The position numbers and the translations under genes are program-made. This document shows positions 3,532 to 53,605 of a stretch of DNA of 64,000 nucleotides, piece by piece (the first letter of the stretch is position 1; the number at the start of each line of letters is the position of its first letter). The notes beneath the pieces are model-generated. The model made no database searches, had not been told where the DNA came from, and saw nothing but the letters and a program-made list of their open reading frames with translations. Origin of the DNA: Nocardioides humi (GTDB lineage: Bacteria; Actinomycetota; Actinomycetes; Propionibacteriales; Nocardioidaceae); NCBI RefSeq assembly GCF_006494775.1, contig NZ_CP041146.1, positions 1,426,001 through 1,490,000 on the forward strand. Direction: 5' to 3'.

Positions 3532-3580
3532 GCTCACGTGGGGTGAGTCTAGGCCCGGGACGCCAGCACGTCGGTCACCC

Positions 3581-6500
3581 TCAGTCCAGCAGGGCCGCGA
3601 GGACGTCGGCCACCCGGTCGACCGCGGGGCGGCGTACGAGATCGCCGTGGGTGGCGGCGACGTCGTGGCGGCGCACCTCCCCCTTCGTGTACGACGACCA
3701 GCCGGTCGCCTCCAGCCAGATCTCCGCCCGCGGGCGGTCGCGACGACGACATCGACGTCGCCGTCGAGGATCGGGTGCCGGGAGCTGCGCACGATCCGGG
3801 CGGCGTTGACGACGCCGGCGATGCAGCCGGCGAGGACGTCGGGCGGCAGGGCGGCGAGGGCGGAGCCGCCGGCGCGCAGCACGTCCACCACGATGGCGCG
3901 GTCGAGGACGGGGGCACCGTCGGCGTCGTCGGGCAGGAGTCCCTCGACGCCGCCCATCCGCAGGATGCCGCGCAGCGCCTCCTGCTCGGTGGGCTCGGCG
4001 AGGTGCTGCCACTGCTCGGAGGGATAGGCGTCGAGCAGCAGCACGGCGCCGACGTCCTGGTCGTCCGCGCGGGCGAGGGCGGCGACGGCGTGCGCGGCCA
4101 TCCCGCCCAGCGACCAGCCGGCGACGTGGAACCGGCCGGTGCCGACCACGGCCCGGATCGCGGCCAGCTGGTGGCGGGCGAGGGCCTCGAGGTCGTCGAA
4201 AGCGGTGGGCGTGCCGGTGGCGAGCCCGGCCGCCTGGAGGGCGTGGACGGGCAGGTCGGCCGGCAGGGCGCCGAGCAGGCTCGTGTAGCACCAGCCCAGG
4301 CCGCCGGCGGGCGGGAGCAGGAACAGCGGCGCGCGGTCGCTGTCCCGGGCGGCGCGCAGGGTGAGGACCTCGTCCAGGCCTCCCCGCCGGCGCTCCCGCC
4401 GGACACGAGGGCCGCCAGCCCGGCCGGGGTGGGCGCCGCGAACACGTCGGCCAGGCCGAGCTCGACGCCGAGGTCGTCCTCGACCCGCCCGAGCAGGCGC
4501 AGTACGCCGAGCGAGTCGCCGCCGCTGGAGAAGAAGTCGGCGTCGGGGGCGAGCGGCGAGCCGCCGAGCACCTCGCCGAAGATCGCGCACAGCTGCTGCT
4601 CGACCAGTGTCGACGGCGCCTCGGCGCCGGCCGCGGCGCCGGTGTCGGGCGGCGCGAGCTCCGCCAGCCGCGCGCGGTCGGTCTTCCCGCTGGTGCCCAG
4701 CGGCATCGCGGCGACGGGCACGTAGTGGCTGGGCATCCAGCCCTCGGGCAGCGCCGAGGCGGCCCGTGCGCGCAGACCGCCGACCACCTCGTCCGCACCG
4801 ACGCCCGGGGCCGGGACGAACCAGACGACCAGCCGGCCGTCCACGACCCCGGCCGCCACCGCGTCGGCCCCGTCCGTCCCGGCGACGGCGGCCTCGATCT
4901 CGCCGAGCTCGATCCGCTGGCCGCGGACCTTGACCTGGTCGTCGGTGCGGCCGAGATAGCGCAGCGCGCCGTCGGGGCGCCAGGCGGCGAGGTCTCCGGT
5001 GCGGTAGAGGCGGCCGAGGCCCGGAACGTCCACGAACCGCTCGGCGGTCAGATCGGGCCGCCCGACATACCCCTCGGCGAGCTGGACGCCGCCGAGCCAC
5101 AGCTCGCCGACCACCCCGATCGGCACCGGCCGGCCGCCCGGATCGAGCACGTGACAGGTGGTGTTCCACACCGGCCGGCCGATCGGCACCGCTCGCTCGT
5201 CGTCCGGCGAGCAGTCCCAGACGGTGACGTCGACCGCGGCCTCGGTGGGTCCGTAGAGGTTGGTCGGCGCGACGCCGAACCACTCCACGCAGCCCGCCAC
5301 CAGGTCCGGCGTCAGCGCCTCGCCGCTGCACACCAGGGAGCGGACTACGCCGGAGCGCACCCGCTCGCGGCTGACCCGGTCGGCGAGAAAGGCGCGCAGC
5401 ATCGACGGCACGAAGTGCAGCGTGGTCACCCGCTCCTCGACCACGAGCTCGGCCAGTCGCCGCGGATCGCGGTGGGCGCCGGGCTCGGCGATCACGACGC
5501 AGCCTCCGGCCTGCAGCGGCCAGAACAGCTCCCACACCGAGACGTCGAAGGAGATCGGCGTCTTGTGCAGCACCCGCTCGCCGGGCGCGAGCCGGAAGTA
5601 GTGCTGCATCCAGGCCAGCCGGTTGTCGATCGCCGCGTGCCCGACCAGGACGCCCTTGGGCCGGCCGGTCGAGCCGGAGGTGAAGAGCAGGTACGCCGGC
5701 GCGGCGGGGTCGGCGAAGACGTCGGCCACCGGCTCGGCGGCCGCGAGCTCCTCGAGCGGGAACGCTTGCCCAGTTCCGCGTCGTCCAGGGCGGGTGATGG
5801 CAAAGGCCACTTCGTTCAGACCTCGGCGCGAAGGCATGCTGGGCGCACGTCGAGCGTCGGCAACGCCGCCAGCGCGCGTCATGGGCGGCGCGGGGCGGGC
5901 GGGGTCGGTGACCACCAGCGCCACGTCGGCGTCCTCGCACATCGCGGCCAGCCGCGCCTCGGGGAGGTCCGGGTCGAGCGGCAGGTACACCGCGCCGAGC
6001 AGCTGGACCGCGTGGATCGTCTCGTAGAGCCCGAGCCCGCGGGGCAGGCGGACGCCGACGACATCGCCCGGGCCGACGCCCCGCTCGCGCAGCCCGCCGG
6101 CGATCCGGCGGCTGCGATCGAGCAGCTCGCCGTAGGTCCGGGTCGCGCCGGCGAACACCAGGGCCGGCGCCTCCGGGGTGGCCTCCGCCTGCCGGACGAA
6201 CCGCTGCGCGAGGGTCGCCGCGTCGTGCGGGTGGGCCGTGGCGTTGAAGCCGTCGATCATGCGCAGCTCGTCCGGCGTCGCGAGCGGCAGCGCCTCGACC
6301 GGGAGGTCGGGCTCGGCGCCGGCGAGGGCGACCAGCCACGACCGCAGGCGCGCCAGGTGGGCGGCCAGCTCGCCGGCGTCGTACAGGTCGGGGTGGGCGT
6401 CGAGCTCGAGGCGTACGGCGCGGCCGCGGCCGGGCGTGCCGCGCAGCCCGATGGTCATGTCCTCGACCGGGCCGGCGGTGAGATTGCGGACCGCACCCGC

Positions 6501-7580
6501 GACCTCGCCCAGCGAGATCTCGAGGTCGAACGGGATCAGGTTGAGCTGAGCGCCGAACAGCTGAGCGCCCGGATGCTCACGGGCCAGCATCCGCTGGAGC
6601 GCCTCCTGCCGGACGAACGGGTGCTCGCGCACCTCGCGCTGGCCGGCCGCCACGGCGGCCAGGACGTCCGCGACGGTGCCGCGGCCGGGGATGGTCAGGG
6701 GCAGCACGTTCGTCGCGGTGCACACGGTGCGGGCCGCAGCCAGCTGGCCGACGCCGGGGACGGCCCGGTTCATCAGCGGCAGCCCGATCCGGGTGGCGTC
6801 GCGGCCGGCCATCCGGGCCAGGTAGGCGCCCACCGCGGCGGTCACCAGGTCGGTCCAGCCGACGCCGAGCCGGCGGGCGCCCTGCACCAGCGCGGTCTGG
6901 GCCTCCTCGTCGAGCGGGACCACCGCGCGTCGGGCGCGGGCTGCCGGGGACGACGTCCGCCCGGCGAGCGCGACGACGCCCGTCATGCCGGCCAGCCGCT
7001 CCTGCCAGGCCGACGTGGCGGCGGTGTCGTCGCGGGCGGCGTCCTCGGCGACCACGTCCGCGAGAACGGCGCCCGGCTCGGCACGGGGTGCGCGCTGCTC
7101 CACGATCGCGTCGTGGTGCTCGGCGATGCGGCGGAGCAGCTGCTGCGCGGCGTACCCGTCGGCGACCAGGTGGTGCGCCGCGTGGTACCACCAGCAGCGG
7201 CCGTCCGGGAGCCGGAGCAGCGCCGACCGCACCAGCGGATCGCCCCCGGTCAGGCGCATCGGGACGGCGAGGTCGTCGCGCAGCCACGCCTCGGCGGCCT
7301 GCTCGCCGGCGACGTCGACCACGGGCAGCGCCACCTCCGGCACCTGCCCTTCAATCAACTCCGTGACGCGCTGCCGCGGCCCGTCCGGGGCCACGGCCAG
7401 CTCGACGCGGACCTGCTCGTGCTCGGCGTACGCCCGCCGGTGCGCCTCGCGGAGCACGTCGGCGTCGACCGGGCCGGCGAGCTCGACGACCTCGGCGGTG
7501 GTGTAGCAGGGGTTGTCCGGCGCGAGCTCGTGGGCGAAGAACAGGCCCAGCTGCGCGCTGGTGAGCGGAAGGTCAGACAC
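3581..7580 (-). CDS. entF: Single-module siderophore synthetase EntF-like (C-A-T-TE), two apparent frameshifts
   Basis: Condenses aryl-carrier-bound 2,3-dihydroxybenzoate with an amino acid and releases the product. Corrected length is about 1,333 residues, like EntF. Condensation domain: HHLVADG at residues 136-142. Adenylation domain: LLFTSGSTGRPKG near 625, NLYGPTEAAVDVT, YRTGDLAAW and PLGTSGKTDR. Carrier: FFSSGGDSLGV near 1020. Thioesterase: GWSLGG near 1155. The stretch FDVSVWELFW with LHFVPSM and CSGEAL closely resembles serine-activating EntF. GTG start, overlapping entB by 8 bp. One base is missing near 4382-4385 and another at 3726-3737, and the thioesterase frame is restored only if each is added back. 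An in-frame repeat lies at 5790-5879. No MbtH-like gene is adjacent. Confidence 0.9.
5790..5879. repeat. Dispersed repeat family A, copy inside entF
   Basis: A 90-base unit (30 codons) that keeps the entF frame open. It shares an identical 34-base run (5798-5831) and an identical 23-base run (5852-5874) with the copy at 8525-8615, separated by about 20 diverged bases. Its ends are only weakly inverted (8 of 12). It falls in the adenylation-domain linker between VVTDPARPAP and the ATP loop. The encoded residues include MPSRRGLNEVAFA, unlike anything expected in this domain. Confidence 0.85.
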
Positions 7581-8471
7581 CGACGACGAGCGCGCGCTCA
7601 CGGAGGAAGGAGATCGTGGGCCGGCGGGTGAACTCGCCGAAGTCGACGTCGACGCCGGACTCGGCGAGCACGTCGAGCACCTCGAAGGCGCGCAGCGAGT
7701 CCAGGCCAAGAGAGAACAGGTCGGTCTCCGGGTCCGCGAACGCGGTCGCGACCAGGTCGGCGTCCAGGTGGACGGCGAGCTCGTCGCGCAGCACGGCGTC
7801 GAGCCCAGCGCCGGCACCGGCGGCGGCCGGCGCCGCCGGCGTGAGGGCCGCGACGACGCTGTCGGCCGTGGCGACCACCCCGCAACAGCTGGCGATCTGG
7901 CGCAGCGCGAGCGCATGCTCCTCGGGCCCGAAGTCGGCGACGGCGTCGGCCACGACGAACGGGTGCACCTCGCGCTGGAAGGCCTCCAGCGCGGTGGCGG
8001 TGACGCCGATGTGGGCGTAGACGCCGGTGATCACCAGCTGGTCGCGACCGGCCGCGGCCAGCTCCTCGGCGAGCTCGCTGCGCGCGAAGGCGCTGTAGCG
8101 GTGCTTCACCAGCACCCGCTCCCCCGCCTCGGGCGCGACGGCGTCGAGGATGTCGGTGTGCTCGGGCACCGCGCGCATCCCGGGGCCCCACAGGTCCCGC
8201 TGCAGGCCCGCGCGGTCTGGTCCTGGTCGCCGCGCTGCGCGGTGTAGAAGACGGGTACGCCGGCGGCGCGCGCGGCGCCCAGGATCTCCGCGGTGCGGCG
8301 TACCGCCTGGTGCAGGGCGGCGCAGTCGGGCGCGTAGGGCCGGGTGAAGTACCGCTGCAGGTCGTGGACCAGGACCGCGGCCCGCTCGGCCCGCAGCGTC
8401 CATCCGGCCCGGCTGACGGGCAGGGCGGACAGGTCGGGACCGGCGTAGTCGATCGACGGCGGCAGGGGCAT
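7573..8471 (-). CDS. entB: Isochorismatase with aryl carrier domain (EntB-like), one apparent frameshift
   Basis: Bifunctional protein: hydrolyses isochorismate to 2,3-dihydro-2,3-dihydroxybenzoate and carries 2,3-dihydroxybenzoate for EntF. Corrected length is 299 residues. The isochorismatase half has LVHDLQRYF with the catalytic Asp, VLVKHRYSAF with the Lys, and ITGVYAHIG as in EntB. The C-terminal carrier has FSLGLDSLR, whose Ser takes the phosphopantetheine. The start ATG has a strong GAGGAG five bases upstream. One base is missing in the run at 8205-8215: QRGDQDQT continues as GLQRDLWGPGM only after a one-base shift. It overlaps entF by 8 bp. Confidence 0.92.
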
Positions 8472-8524
8472 CAGGGCTCCTCGATGGGTAGGTCCAAGGG
8501 ATCGTGCAGCGAGTGGTGCTCAGG

Positions 8525-8615
8525 GCGCGCGCTGGCAAAGGCCACTTCGTTCAGACCTCGGCGCGAGGGCATACCGGGTCGTCTGGTGAGCGTCGGCAAC
8601 GCCGCCAGCGTGCGC
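8525..8615. repeat. Dispersed repeat family A, intergenic copy between entE and entB
   Basis: A 91-base unit bounded by a 12-base inverted repeat (8525-8536 and 8604-8615, 11 of 12 matching). The interior shares 34-base and 23-base identical runs with the copy in entF. The block at 8567-8587 matches the copy at 53440-53605 instead (GGCATACCGGGT followed by GTCTG). It occupies about half of the 177-base gap between entE and entB. Confidence 0.85.
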
Positions 8616-8648
8616 TCTGGGCGCCGCGCAGCGCGCGAGACCTTGGGA

Positions 8649-10421
8649 CTACTCATCGGACAGACGGGCGGCGAGCAGCCGGCGCAGGTCGCGCCGGCTG
8701 TTCTTGCCGACGTGGGTGACCGGGAACTGGTCGAGGAACTCGAACTGGTCGGGGAGCTTGTAGGTGGCCAGGCCGCTGGCCCGCAGGTGCTCGGTGAGCT
8801 CGGCGCCGAGATCCGGCCCGGACCGGACGCCGGCCTCGGGGCGGACGACGACGCAGATCCGCTCGCCGAGGTAGGGGTCGGGCAGCCCGACGACGACCGC
8901 GTCGAGGACGTCGGGGCGCGCGAGCAGCGGGCCCTCGATCTCCTCGGTGGCGACCTTCTCGCCGCCGCGGTTGATCTGGTCCTTGGCGCGTCCGGTGACG
9001 ACGAGGTGCCCGCTCGGCAGTCGGCGGACCAGGTCGCCGGTGCGGTAGAACCCGTCGGCGGTGAACGCGTCGCGGTTCACCGGGTCGTCGGCGCCGCCGG
9101 GGGCGTAGTAGCCGCGGATCGTGTACGGCCCGCGGGTCTGCAACGCGCCCTCCTCCCCGTCGGGCACCTCGGCCTCGTCGGGGTCGGCCGGGTCGACGAT
9201 CCGGATCTCGTCGTCGGGGCTGATCGGGCGGCCCTGCGTGGTGAGCACCAGCTCGTCGGGGTCGTCGAGCCGGGTGTAGTTGACCAGGCCCTCGGCCATC
9301 CCGAACACCTGCTGCACCCGGGCGCCGAGCACCGGCCCGATCTCGGCGGCGACGGCGTCGGAGAGCCGGGCGCCGCCGACCTGGATCACCTCCAGCGAGG
9401 ACAGGTCCGGCGTACGACGGCGGGCCGACGAGATCCACGCCTGCGCCAGCGGCGGGACGAGCGAGGTCCAGGTCACCCGCTCCTCGGCCACCAGCCGGAA
9501 CGCCGTGCGCGGACTGGGATCCCGGGCCAGCACCACGGTGCCGCCGACGTGCAGGACGCCGAGGATGCCGGGCGAGCTCATCGCGAAATTGTGCGCCGCC
9601 GGGAGCACGACGAGCAGCACGGTCTCCTCGCCGAGCCCGCAGATCTCCGCCGAGGCCCGCACCGAGTACAGGTAGTCGGCATGGGTCCGCGGGATCAGCT
9701 TCGCCACCCCCGTCGTCCCCCCTGACAGCTGGAGGAACGCCACCTCCTCCGCCCGACCCGGCGCAAACAGACCTTCAGAAGACGTCGACCCGGCGCATCC
9801 TGACCTCCGGAGGACGCCGACCCGACCCGTCCCCAGGTCAGGATGCGCCGGGTCGGCGTGAATTCGGGGTTCGGATGAGCCGGGTCGGGGCCATTGTTGG
9901 ACGTCGACCAGCGCCGGCGGCTCGACCCCCTGCGCCCGCAGCCGCTCGGCCACCCGGTCCACCAGCGCGCGGTGGTCGTGGCCGTCGGTGTCGCCGGAGA
10001 CCACGATCGCCGCGGCGTCGGCGATCGCGCAGAACTGGCTCAGCTCGGTCTCGCGGTGCCCGGGCTGCGCGAAGACGGGCAGGATCCCGGCCCGGAAGCA
10101 GCCGAGGACGACGGCCACGAACTCCACGACATTGGGCAGGGCGAGCACCACCCGGTCACCCGGTACGACGCCCGCGCCCGCCAGCCGGGCGGCGGCCGCG
10201 TCGGCGGCGGCCGCCAGCTCGGCGTACGTCCAGCGCACGGGCGTGCCGTGGGCGTCGACGCCGACGACCGCCGTACGGTCCGCGAACCGGGTGGTCCGGT
10301 CGGCGACGAAGTCCGCGAAGGTCTCGTCGATCCAGTAGCCGGCTGCGCGGTAGCGCGCAGCGAATTCCTCGGGATGGGCAGCCACAGGAGCGAGCGGTGA
10401 CCGCGCGGACGCGCGGCTCAC
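8649..10421 (-). CDS. entE: 2,3-Dihydroxybenzoate-AMP ligase (EntE/DhbE-like) carrying an in-frame palindromic insert
   Basis: Activates 2,3-dihydroxybenzoate with ATP and loads it on the EntB carrier. 590 residues, longer than the roughly 540 usual for the family. Hallmarks: LQLSGGTTGVAKLIPRTHAD (ATP loop), FGMAEGLVNY, YRTGDLVRR and GRAKDQINRGGEKVATEEIE with the hinge region, plus the C-terminal GKNSRRDLRRL. Residues about 178-222, just before the ATP loop, are encoded by the four-arm palindrome at 9755-9886 and account for most of the extra length. It starts with GTG in a GTGA overlap with entC. The frame is open throughout. Confidence 0.93.
   Translation of the reverse strand: MSRASARSPLAPVAAHPEEFAARYRAAGYWIDETFADFVADRTTRFADRTAVVGVDAHGTPVRWTYAELAAAADAAAARLAGAGVVPGDRVVLALPNVVEFVAVVLGCFRAGILPVFAQPGHRETELSQFCAIADAAAIVVSGDTDGHDHRALVDRVAERLRAQGVEPPALVDVQQWPRPGSSEPRIHADPAHPDLGTGRVGVLRRSGCAGSTSSEGLFAPGRAEEVAFLQLSGGTTGVAKLIPRTHADYLYSVRASAEICGLGEETVLLVVLPAAHNFAMSSPGILGVLHVGGTVVLARDPSPRTAFRLVAEERVTWTSLVPPLAQAWISSARRRTPDLSSLEVIQVGGARLSDAVAAEIGPVLGARVQQVFGMAEGLVNYTRLDDPDELVLTTQGRPISPDDEIRIVDPADPDEAEVPDGEEGALQTRGPYTIRGYYAPGGADDPVNRDAFTADGFYRTGDLVRRLPSGHLVVTGRAKDQINRGGEKVATEEIEGPLLARPDVLDAVVVGLPDPYLGERICVVVRPEAGVRSGPDLGAELTEHLRASGLATYKLPDQFEFLDQFPVTHVGKNSRRDLRRLLAARLSDE
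9755..9886. repeat. Palindromic element of four 20-base arms inside entE
   Basis: Four copies of a roughly 20-base motif (consensus GACCCGGCGCATCCTGACCT) lie at 9755-9775, 9787-9806, 9835-9854 and 9868-9886, the first two direct and the last two inverted. The inner pair is a perfect 20-base inverted repeat around a 28-base loop. The outer pair is diverged. The whole element is translated in frame as part of EntE (about 44 codons). Confidence 0.9.
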
Positions 10422-53439: not shown

Positions 53440-53605
53440 CTAGTAGTGTGTCGCGGCTAGAGCGTGGTGTTGGAGGTGTCCAGGTGCGTACATCGCAAGG
53501 CGGCGGAGCGACGGCATACCGGGTTGTCTGCCGAGCTTCGCCAACGCGGCGAGGTGCGTGCCTGGGCGACTCCCAGCCCGCGTTCTAGCTGCGACGCGCT
53601 ACTAG
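53440..53605. repeat. Repeat family A, long form with terminal inverted repeats
   Basis: 166 bases bounded by 25-base inverted repeats (53440-53464 and 53581-53605, 21 of 25 matching, all four differences transitions; left arm starts CTAGTAGTGTGTCGCGGCTA). The interior 53505-53570 is related to the copies at 8525-8615 and, less so, 5790-5879, for example GGCATACCGGGT then GTCTG. No coding capacity for a transposase, so it is MITE-like. Its right end carries part of the TAGGCT box of the next gene. Confidence 0.8.

Follow-up and report, generated by a model that had tools for sequence, protein, structure and literature searches.

The window analysed here, a 64,000-nucleotide stretch covering positions 1426001-1490000 of the single-contig, 6.22-Mb genome of Nocardioides humi (G000 where it has to be told from others), contains a siderophore operon whose two adenylation enzymes, EntF and EntE, each carry a repeat element inside the reading frame (Table 1). 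The element in entF belongs to a dispersed repeat that we call family A, and the one in entE, a four-arm palindrome, to a second and unrelated repeat, family B. A third gene of the operon encodes an isochorismatase joined to an aryl carrier protein (ArCP), which we take to be dhbB/entB. Both inserts are read through by single open reading frames (ORFs) with coding-like flanks, over more than 1000 codons in entF and over the full length of entE. In blastn, the entF copy matches other family A copies with up to 89-91% identity over 91-112 nucleotides (nt), and the best match of the entE copy to other family B copies has about 75% identity over query positions 1-131 (E 1.1e-20); at the level of the DNA sequence, chance is excluded as the source of these matches. 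In entF the element is shortened and has no paired outer arms, which most intergenic family A copies possess. The initial annotation of this stretch had proposed two different, unrelated repeats, both read in frame, and in this it was right, each family recurring genome-wide by blastn as well as by covariance models.

Table 1. Genes and repeat elements discussed in the text (window positions unless marked as genome positions).
Feature	Position	Strand	Basis and remarks
ORF with entF (condensation-adenylation-peptidyl carrier protein, C-A-PCP)	3549..7916	-	Pfam Condensation, AMP-binding, PP-binding; thioesterase end in other frames below ~4395
dhbB/entB (presumed name), isochorismatase-ArCP	7573..8492	-	tblastn with the protein of relative L255; two frames, change near 8178-8208
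entE, 2,3-dihydroxybenzoate-AMP ligase (name by homology)	8649..10421	-	Pfam AMP-binding, AMP-binding_C; Foldseek matches FscC, DhbE, EntE
Family A element, truncated, inside entF	5765..5905	+ (translated on opposite strand)	Covariance model R1, 97.8 bits; blastn to other copies
Second family A element, entE stop to dhbB start	8500..8641	+	R1, 102.6 bits; 83% identity to entF copy; two stops in frame
Family B four-arm palindrome inside entE	9754..9888	+ (translated on opposite strand)	Covariance model R2, 106.3 bits; blastn to other copies
Further family A copy, arms CTAGTAGTGTGTCGCGGCT	53460..53586	+	R1, 81.5 bits; outside any single open frame, context class divergent
recC with two family A inserts (L219, L244)	genome 2579619-2580599		Each insert exactly 162 nt = 54 residues

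The EntE and EntF inserts in relatives and in structural models

Insert-free homologues, which the initial annotation had suggested looking for, exist in six relatives, five from the genus (L255, L256, L257, L061 and L072, the ent genes of the last being frame-broken elsewhere) and one from another family of the same order (L258), all of which lack both inserts. The extra residues are thus missing from the nearest relatives, and the repeat sequences are spread far beyond the operon, the opposite of the two outcomes that the initial annotation had named as telling against it. Species-named sequences among the best EntE matches include N. daejeonensis and N. alcanivorans, and for RecC the best matches with a species name come from Nocardioides. 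Counted as residues between fixed anchors (three EntE loci and one EntF locus were dropped), the EntE linker measures 54 residues as compared with 23-33 in five of the six relatives; over all 81 other EntE proteins the range is 14-58 (median 20). The EntF linker measures 71 residues, as compared with 22-45 in these relatives and with a range of 22-78 (median 39) over 52 other EntF proteins. In each set only one linker is longer than that of the window, and some distant lineages have their own long linkers; equally long ones are found in a gammaproteobacterial EntE (L090, 58 residues) and in an EntF of Pseudonocardia (L102, 78 residues). Measured pairwise against an outgroup, nonsynonymous divergence (dN) shows no increase in N. 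humi, amounting to 0.226 for entE (relative, 0.263) and to 0.282 for the entF adenylation domain (relative, 0.298).

Both insert segments are predicted to be disordered. In AlphaFold models built from 19 sequences for EntE (mean predicted local distance difference test score, pLDDT, 82.1) and from 8 for the EntF stretch (mean 76.1), pLDDT falls below 50 at EntE residues 191-225 and at residues 120-153 of the modelled EntF stretch. The EntE insert, which lies after the strand ALVDV, would form a loop between strand 177-180 and the strand of the ATP loop (234-239), and the EntF insert a loop between strands 108-111 and 158-161, ahead of the ATP-loop strand 181-186, that is, one strand earlier than in EntE and about 30 residues upstream of TSGSTG. 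In a joint alignment of EntE and EntF the insert positions are likewise neighbouring, not identical. The statement that both elements sit at the same place, directly before the ATP-binding loop, consequently applies to EntE only and has to be relaxed, for EntF, to neighbouring loops of one variable stretch.

Distribution, structure and mobility of the two families

A covariance model of family A (R1; 30 copies including that in entF, E <= 0.01, 150 candidates scored) finds 89 matches in the genome, 87 of which score at least 55.8 bits, the other two scoring 37.6 and 33.5; blastn with window positions 5786-5902 returns at least 41 rows genome-wide. At E <= 1e-6, 141 of 209 genomes searched in the genus contain the family. 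For the order, with the own genus counted and some matches weak, the figures are 100 of 293 genomes and 13 of 37 genera. The core had no blastn match in plasmids and phages. The majority of copies form long hairpins, about 160-180 nt in length, and for 20 of 33 consensus pairs one or more sequences have both bases exchanged while the pairing is kept. By context, 6 of the 89 matches lie in one open frame (the coding class, defined by one stop-free frame across the element together with a codon-usage score on both flanks). The flanking genes are codirectional for 35 matches, convergent for 17 and divergent for 5, and the context of 26 is unclear.

The outer arms of family A are of several unrelated kinds, including ends GCCTCGATCC, GAGGTTCCGCC and GAACGTGTT. 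Copies 3507286 and 920753, for instance, have an identical 52-nt core stretch at an arm similarity of 0.36, no more than that of shuffled sequence. Over 60 copies and 1770 pairs the core-arm correlation was 0.25; core identity was computed ungapped, so that three pairs with like arms and unlike cores are not trusted, and of seven pairs with like cores and unlike arms two were used, in which copy 3507286 is paired with 920753 and with 3910028, the remainder having like arms at an offset, involving the truncated entF copy or being borderline. Within the core, a stretch AGGCCACTTCGTTCAGACCT is present or absent among copies of one arm type. No Rfam family fits any of 14 loci tried, and three sub-threshold matches were taken as chance.

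Judged by its ends and flanks, family A is a transposon, more precisely a hairpin miniature inverted-repeat transposable element (MITE) of the non-autonomous kind: it is short, multi-copy and without a transposase of its own, and it has terminal inverted repeats and a target-site duplication. Recognisable ends, of three kinds, were found for 30 of the 89 matches, and the three flanking bases form a direct repeat in 20 (TNA in 19, TAG in one), an inverted repeat in one and neither in nine. These counts have the ends fixed by motif; an alternative tally taking the best offset for each copy is biased toward duplications and was set aside. Copy 3662213, with ends CTAGGGCGTGTCTGG, is nested in another family A copy and gives an empty site, the CTAG at both of its ends being the CTAG found there in undisturbed copies of the host kind; match 3662348 (the one of 37.6 bits) is the remnant of a family A copy split by another. 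TNA and CTAG are targets that we presume to belong with the IS5 family of insertion sequences (IS). Elements of IS5 type in the genus (PF13340, present in 33 of the 209 genomes), of about 965-1004 bp, end in CTAGGGCGTGTCT(CCC) or close variants, and three family A copies share CTAGGGCGTGTCT(CCC) ends; an additional G is present in one of them, and in one the left end matches over 16 bases. In the genome of one relative, G106, nine family A copies (L318-L326) with GATGAGTAATTCC-type arms fall into two near-identical groups, an apparent sign of recent spread; in six of the nine, CTAG stands at either end.

For family B, the covariance model (R2; 15 copies including that in entE) gives 56 rows, which correspond to 28 loci, each read on both strands; likewise, many of the 68 blastn rows obtained with window positions 9756-9895 are the two strands of one palindrome. 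Eighteen of the 28 loci lie between convergent and eight between codirectional genes, one is unclear, and one, that in entE, is inside a gene, so that family B is perhaps a two-way terminator between convergent genes. Several matches to family B units at genome positions 6136348-6137636 stand outside the standard four-arm form.

Coding copies and the length rule

The six coding copies of family A lie in entF, in genes for a cytochrome P450, a flavin adenine dinucleotide (FAD) oxidoreductase and a VanX-like dipeptidase, and, twice, in one recC, the gene of a DNA-repair enzyme, and in all six the model strand is antisense to the gene. Together with the entE copy, the single coding one among the 28 family B loci, this is the coding count that the initial annotation had recommended, and its comparison with the in-frame palindromes of Rickettsia holds, for this genome only. 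In EntF, EntE and the oxidoreductase a Pfam match continues through the insert, whereas in RecC, the P450 and the VanX-like protein (in which the match preceding the insert does not reach the family cut-off) the matches adjoin it. Relative to solved structures, the oxidoreductase has gained about 54 residues and the P450, with a weak alignment of its first half, about 52; a phmmer search of PDB with the VanX-like protein found no match.

At the protein level the two recC inserts are missing from 12 relatives of 73-92% identity, the difference amounting to 54 residues at both sites in 11 and to 54 and 58 in one; compared as DNA, 14 relatives have neither site filled. In a search of the genus, 198 of 209 genomes match, and among the matches listed only the own genome is continuous, the others breaking at the inserts. 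The part read, 913 residues, is open. The division of each insert into 159 + 3 nt is readable at one of the two copies; at the second site the left copy of the duplication is TGA and the right copy TGT.

This length recurs among the copies with recognised ends. Thirteen of the 19 copies with GCCT-type ends are exactly 159 nt long, and in 15 (one of them, of 189 nt, doubtful) the length plus three is divisible by three, as it is in all four copies with GAAC-type ends and in none of the seven with GAGG-type ends, which measure 161 or 176 nt. Of 19 non-coding copies of the GCCT type, moreover, 17 have one particular antisense frame open, and for each of the remaining five frames the number is between 1 and 8. 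Element length and the open antisense frame together would thus suffice to keep the frame of a gene upon insertion, with selection acting afterwards.

The initial annotation had offered two accounts of why two elements should meet in neighbouring genes. Repeated insertion into this island is not supported: among 116 elements (the remnant match 3662348 was excluded beforehand) there are 10 pairs within 5 kb as compared with 10.7 expected, no excess, and an insertion hotspot is therefore rejected. A preference for safe sites survives in altered form, as a filter by selection and not as an insertion hotspot. The seven coding copies include two such pairs, entF-entE and recC-recC, where 0.034 would be expected, in a post hoc test with small numbers. 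Since coding copies cluster while the elements overall do not, tolerance of certain proteins is favoured over a hotspot.

Interpretation, rival explanations and known systems

We consider it probable, from sequence comparison, that these elements represent Rickettsia-like protein-coding mobile palindromes in an actinobacterium, occurring in genes at low frequency (about 7%), with family A a hairpin MITE and family B REP-like. Family A would insert with a 3-bp, mostly TNA, duplication, as seen for 20 copies; several kinds of terminal inverted repeat would surround one covarying core; and subfamilies of 159 + 3 = 162 nt with open antisense frames would enter genes as a 54-residue insert. Purifying selection would then remove coding copies from all proteins but those that can accommodate a disordered loop. 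Family B would be a REP-like palindrome, and its copy in entE would be read as a disordered loop preceding the ATP-binding strand. The neighbouring positions of the two inserts in EntE and EntF would reflect the very variable linker of adenylation domains and not a common target sequence. More tentatively, we put forward as a possibility that family A is a modular mobile hairpin, with one core across the order, many end types and several transposases, which would feed ready-made 54-residue disordered loops into proteins; actinobacteria would then have their own equivalent of the coding palindromes of Rickettsia, one whose mechanism of transposition can be read.

Several points weigh against this interpretation. 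As compared with the intact proteins of a relative (G119, L255), dhbB contains one frame change (Table 1) and the end of entF two (4377-4395 and 3724-3733). The operon may be decaying, or there may be errors in the sequence, and its state is uncertain in consequence; in a decaying operon, tolerance of the inserts would be trivial. The insertion event in entF is not directly readable, because that copy is without outer arms. Inside the genes of relatives, none of 63 family A loci was found (30 loci less 3 skipped at contig ends, and 39 more less 3 skipped, thus 27 + 36, two sets that possibly share copies and so count them twice), and the coding habit is therefore established in one genome only. 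A PF13340 transposase was not found in the genome of N. humi itself, and at IS5-type loci no ends matching the other family A arm types were found, so that this partner covers one arm type only.

The frame changes are also what speaks for a decaying siderophore operon, in which any insertion would be tolerated and the open frames would be luck or a recent accident; the presence of three elements within 4.1 kb fits this as well. We nevertheless think it unlikely, given that entF is open for more than 1000 codons across its insert and entE throughout, that the dN values of N. humi are no higher than those of the relative, that in-frame copies also occur in recC with its 913 open residues, and that the frame changes may themselves be sequence errors. 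Strong covariation and conserved internal loops, together with the spread of matches over about a third of the genera of the order, would suit a structured RNA or regulatory hairpin disseminated by gene conversion, with mobility incidental. The conservation of structure is compatible with this and with transposition alike; direct target duplications, the nested insertion, IS-like ends and near-identical groups of copies, however, point to transposition, no Rfam family fits the 14 loci tried, and we judge an RNA of this sort to be quite improbable.

A true preference of the elements for this island, or for adenylation-domain sequence as target, might be read from the coding copies of two families within one operon and from the additional family A copy between its genes. 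It is very improbable in view of the lack of excess clustering, the different loops that received the two inserts and the target signature of family A, which is 3-bp TNA or CTAG. A reading of the inserts as normal variation of the linker, or as ancient extensions of one lineage that merely resemble the repeats, could appeal to the wide range of linker lengths in other EntE and EntF proteins; it is scarcely credible beside the DNA identity of both inserts to dispersed copies and the lack of inserts in close relatives.

The two families have both likenesses to and differences from systems described elsewhere. Repetitive extragenic palindromic (REP) sequences and the doublets they form (REPINs) are short, paired, inverted units, extragenic and in many copies, with a REP-associated tyrosine transposase (RAYT) as partner in the genome. 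Family B resembles them in consisting of short paired palindromic units, in its copy number and in its extragenic position (27 of 28 loci outside a single open frame, one of these unclear). It differs in that no RAYT gene (Y1_Tnp, PF01797) was found in the genome of N. humi, as compared with matches in 5 of 14 control genomes, and in that 18 of its 28 loci lie between convergent genes. The unit size of REP is about 20 nt (PMC3733652).

With IS5-family MITEs, family A shares terminal inverted repeats, a short target duplication, a length that leaves no room for a transposase and, for one arm type, an IS with similar ends in the genus; unlike them, it combines one structured core with unrelated end types and can have a length that gives in-frame inserts. 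In-frame copies are also described for the MITE families QMITE1 and QMITE2 of Coxiella burnetii, each of which has about 50 copies, a number of them in frame within ORFs; the in-frame cases given in the excerpt of PMC5896051 concern a gene end (enhC) and annotated hypothetical proteins, whereas here they are internal loops of conserved enzymes.

As described in excerpts of PMC10969869, Rickettsia palindromic elements (RPEs) are likewise short palindromes (~150 bp) in frame within unrelated metabolic genes, and insertion in frame into unrelated protein genes is what we find here. The host phylum is different, however, and the share of copies in ORFs is small, about 7% of family A being coding (6/89, with 1/28 for family B and 0/63 for the family A loci of relatives) as compared with nearly half of the RPEs; in addition, family A has readable transposon-type ends and target duplications. 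The same excerpts present the Rickettsia elements as the unusually frequent case, in-frame fusions by MITEs being otherwise not unusual, and call a similar mechanism of protein evolution conceivable in other prokaryotes; what in-frame fusion by mobile palindromes contributes to protein evolution is described there as unexplored. Coding palindromes are also described, in an excerpt of PMC6649704, from mitochondria of Nematomorpha. A literature search over titles and the beginnings of abstracts, covering few subscription papers, found neither such elements in Nocardioides nor an actinobacterial case of mobile palindromes read in frame.

The recC sites, filled here and empty in relatives, the readable duplications and the length rule (159 + 3 nt) make it testable whether mobile hairpins add usable protein segments, and also whether selection favours element subfamilies whose length keeps the frame. 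For annotation, where an actinobacterial enzyme has an unusual insert of about 54 residues, the extra segment may be a transposon. Assembly may be affected as well: in two further genomes (G134 and G136), several contigs start or stop within about 150 bases of a family A copy, and the element may break assemblies.

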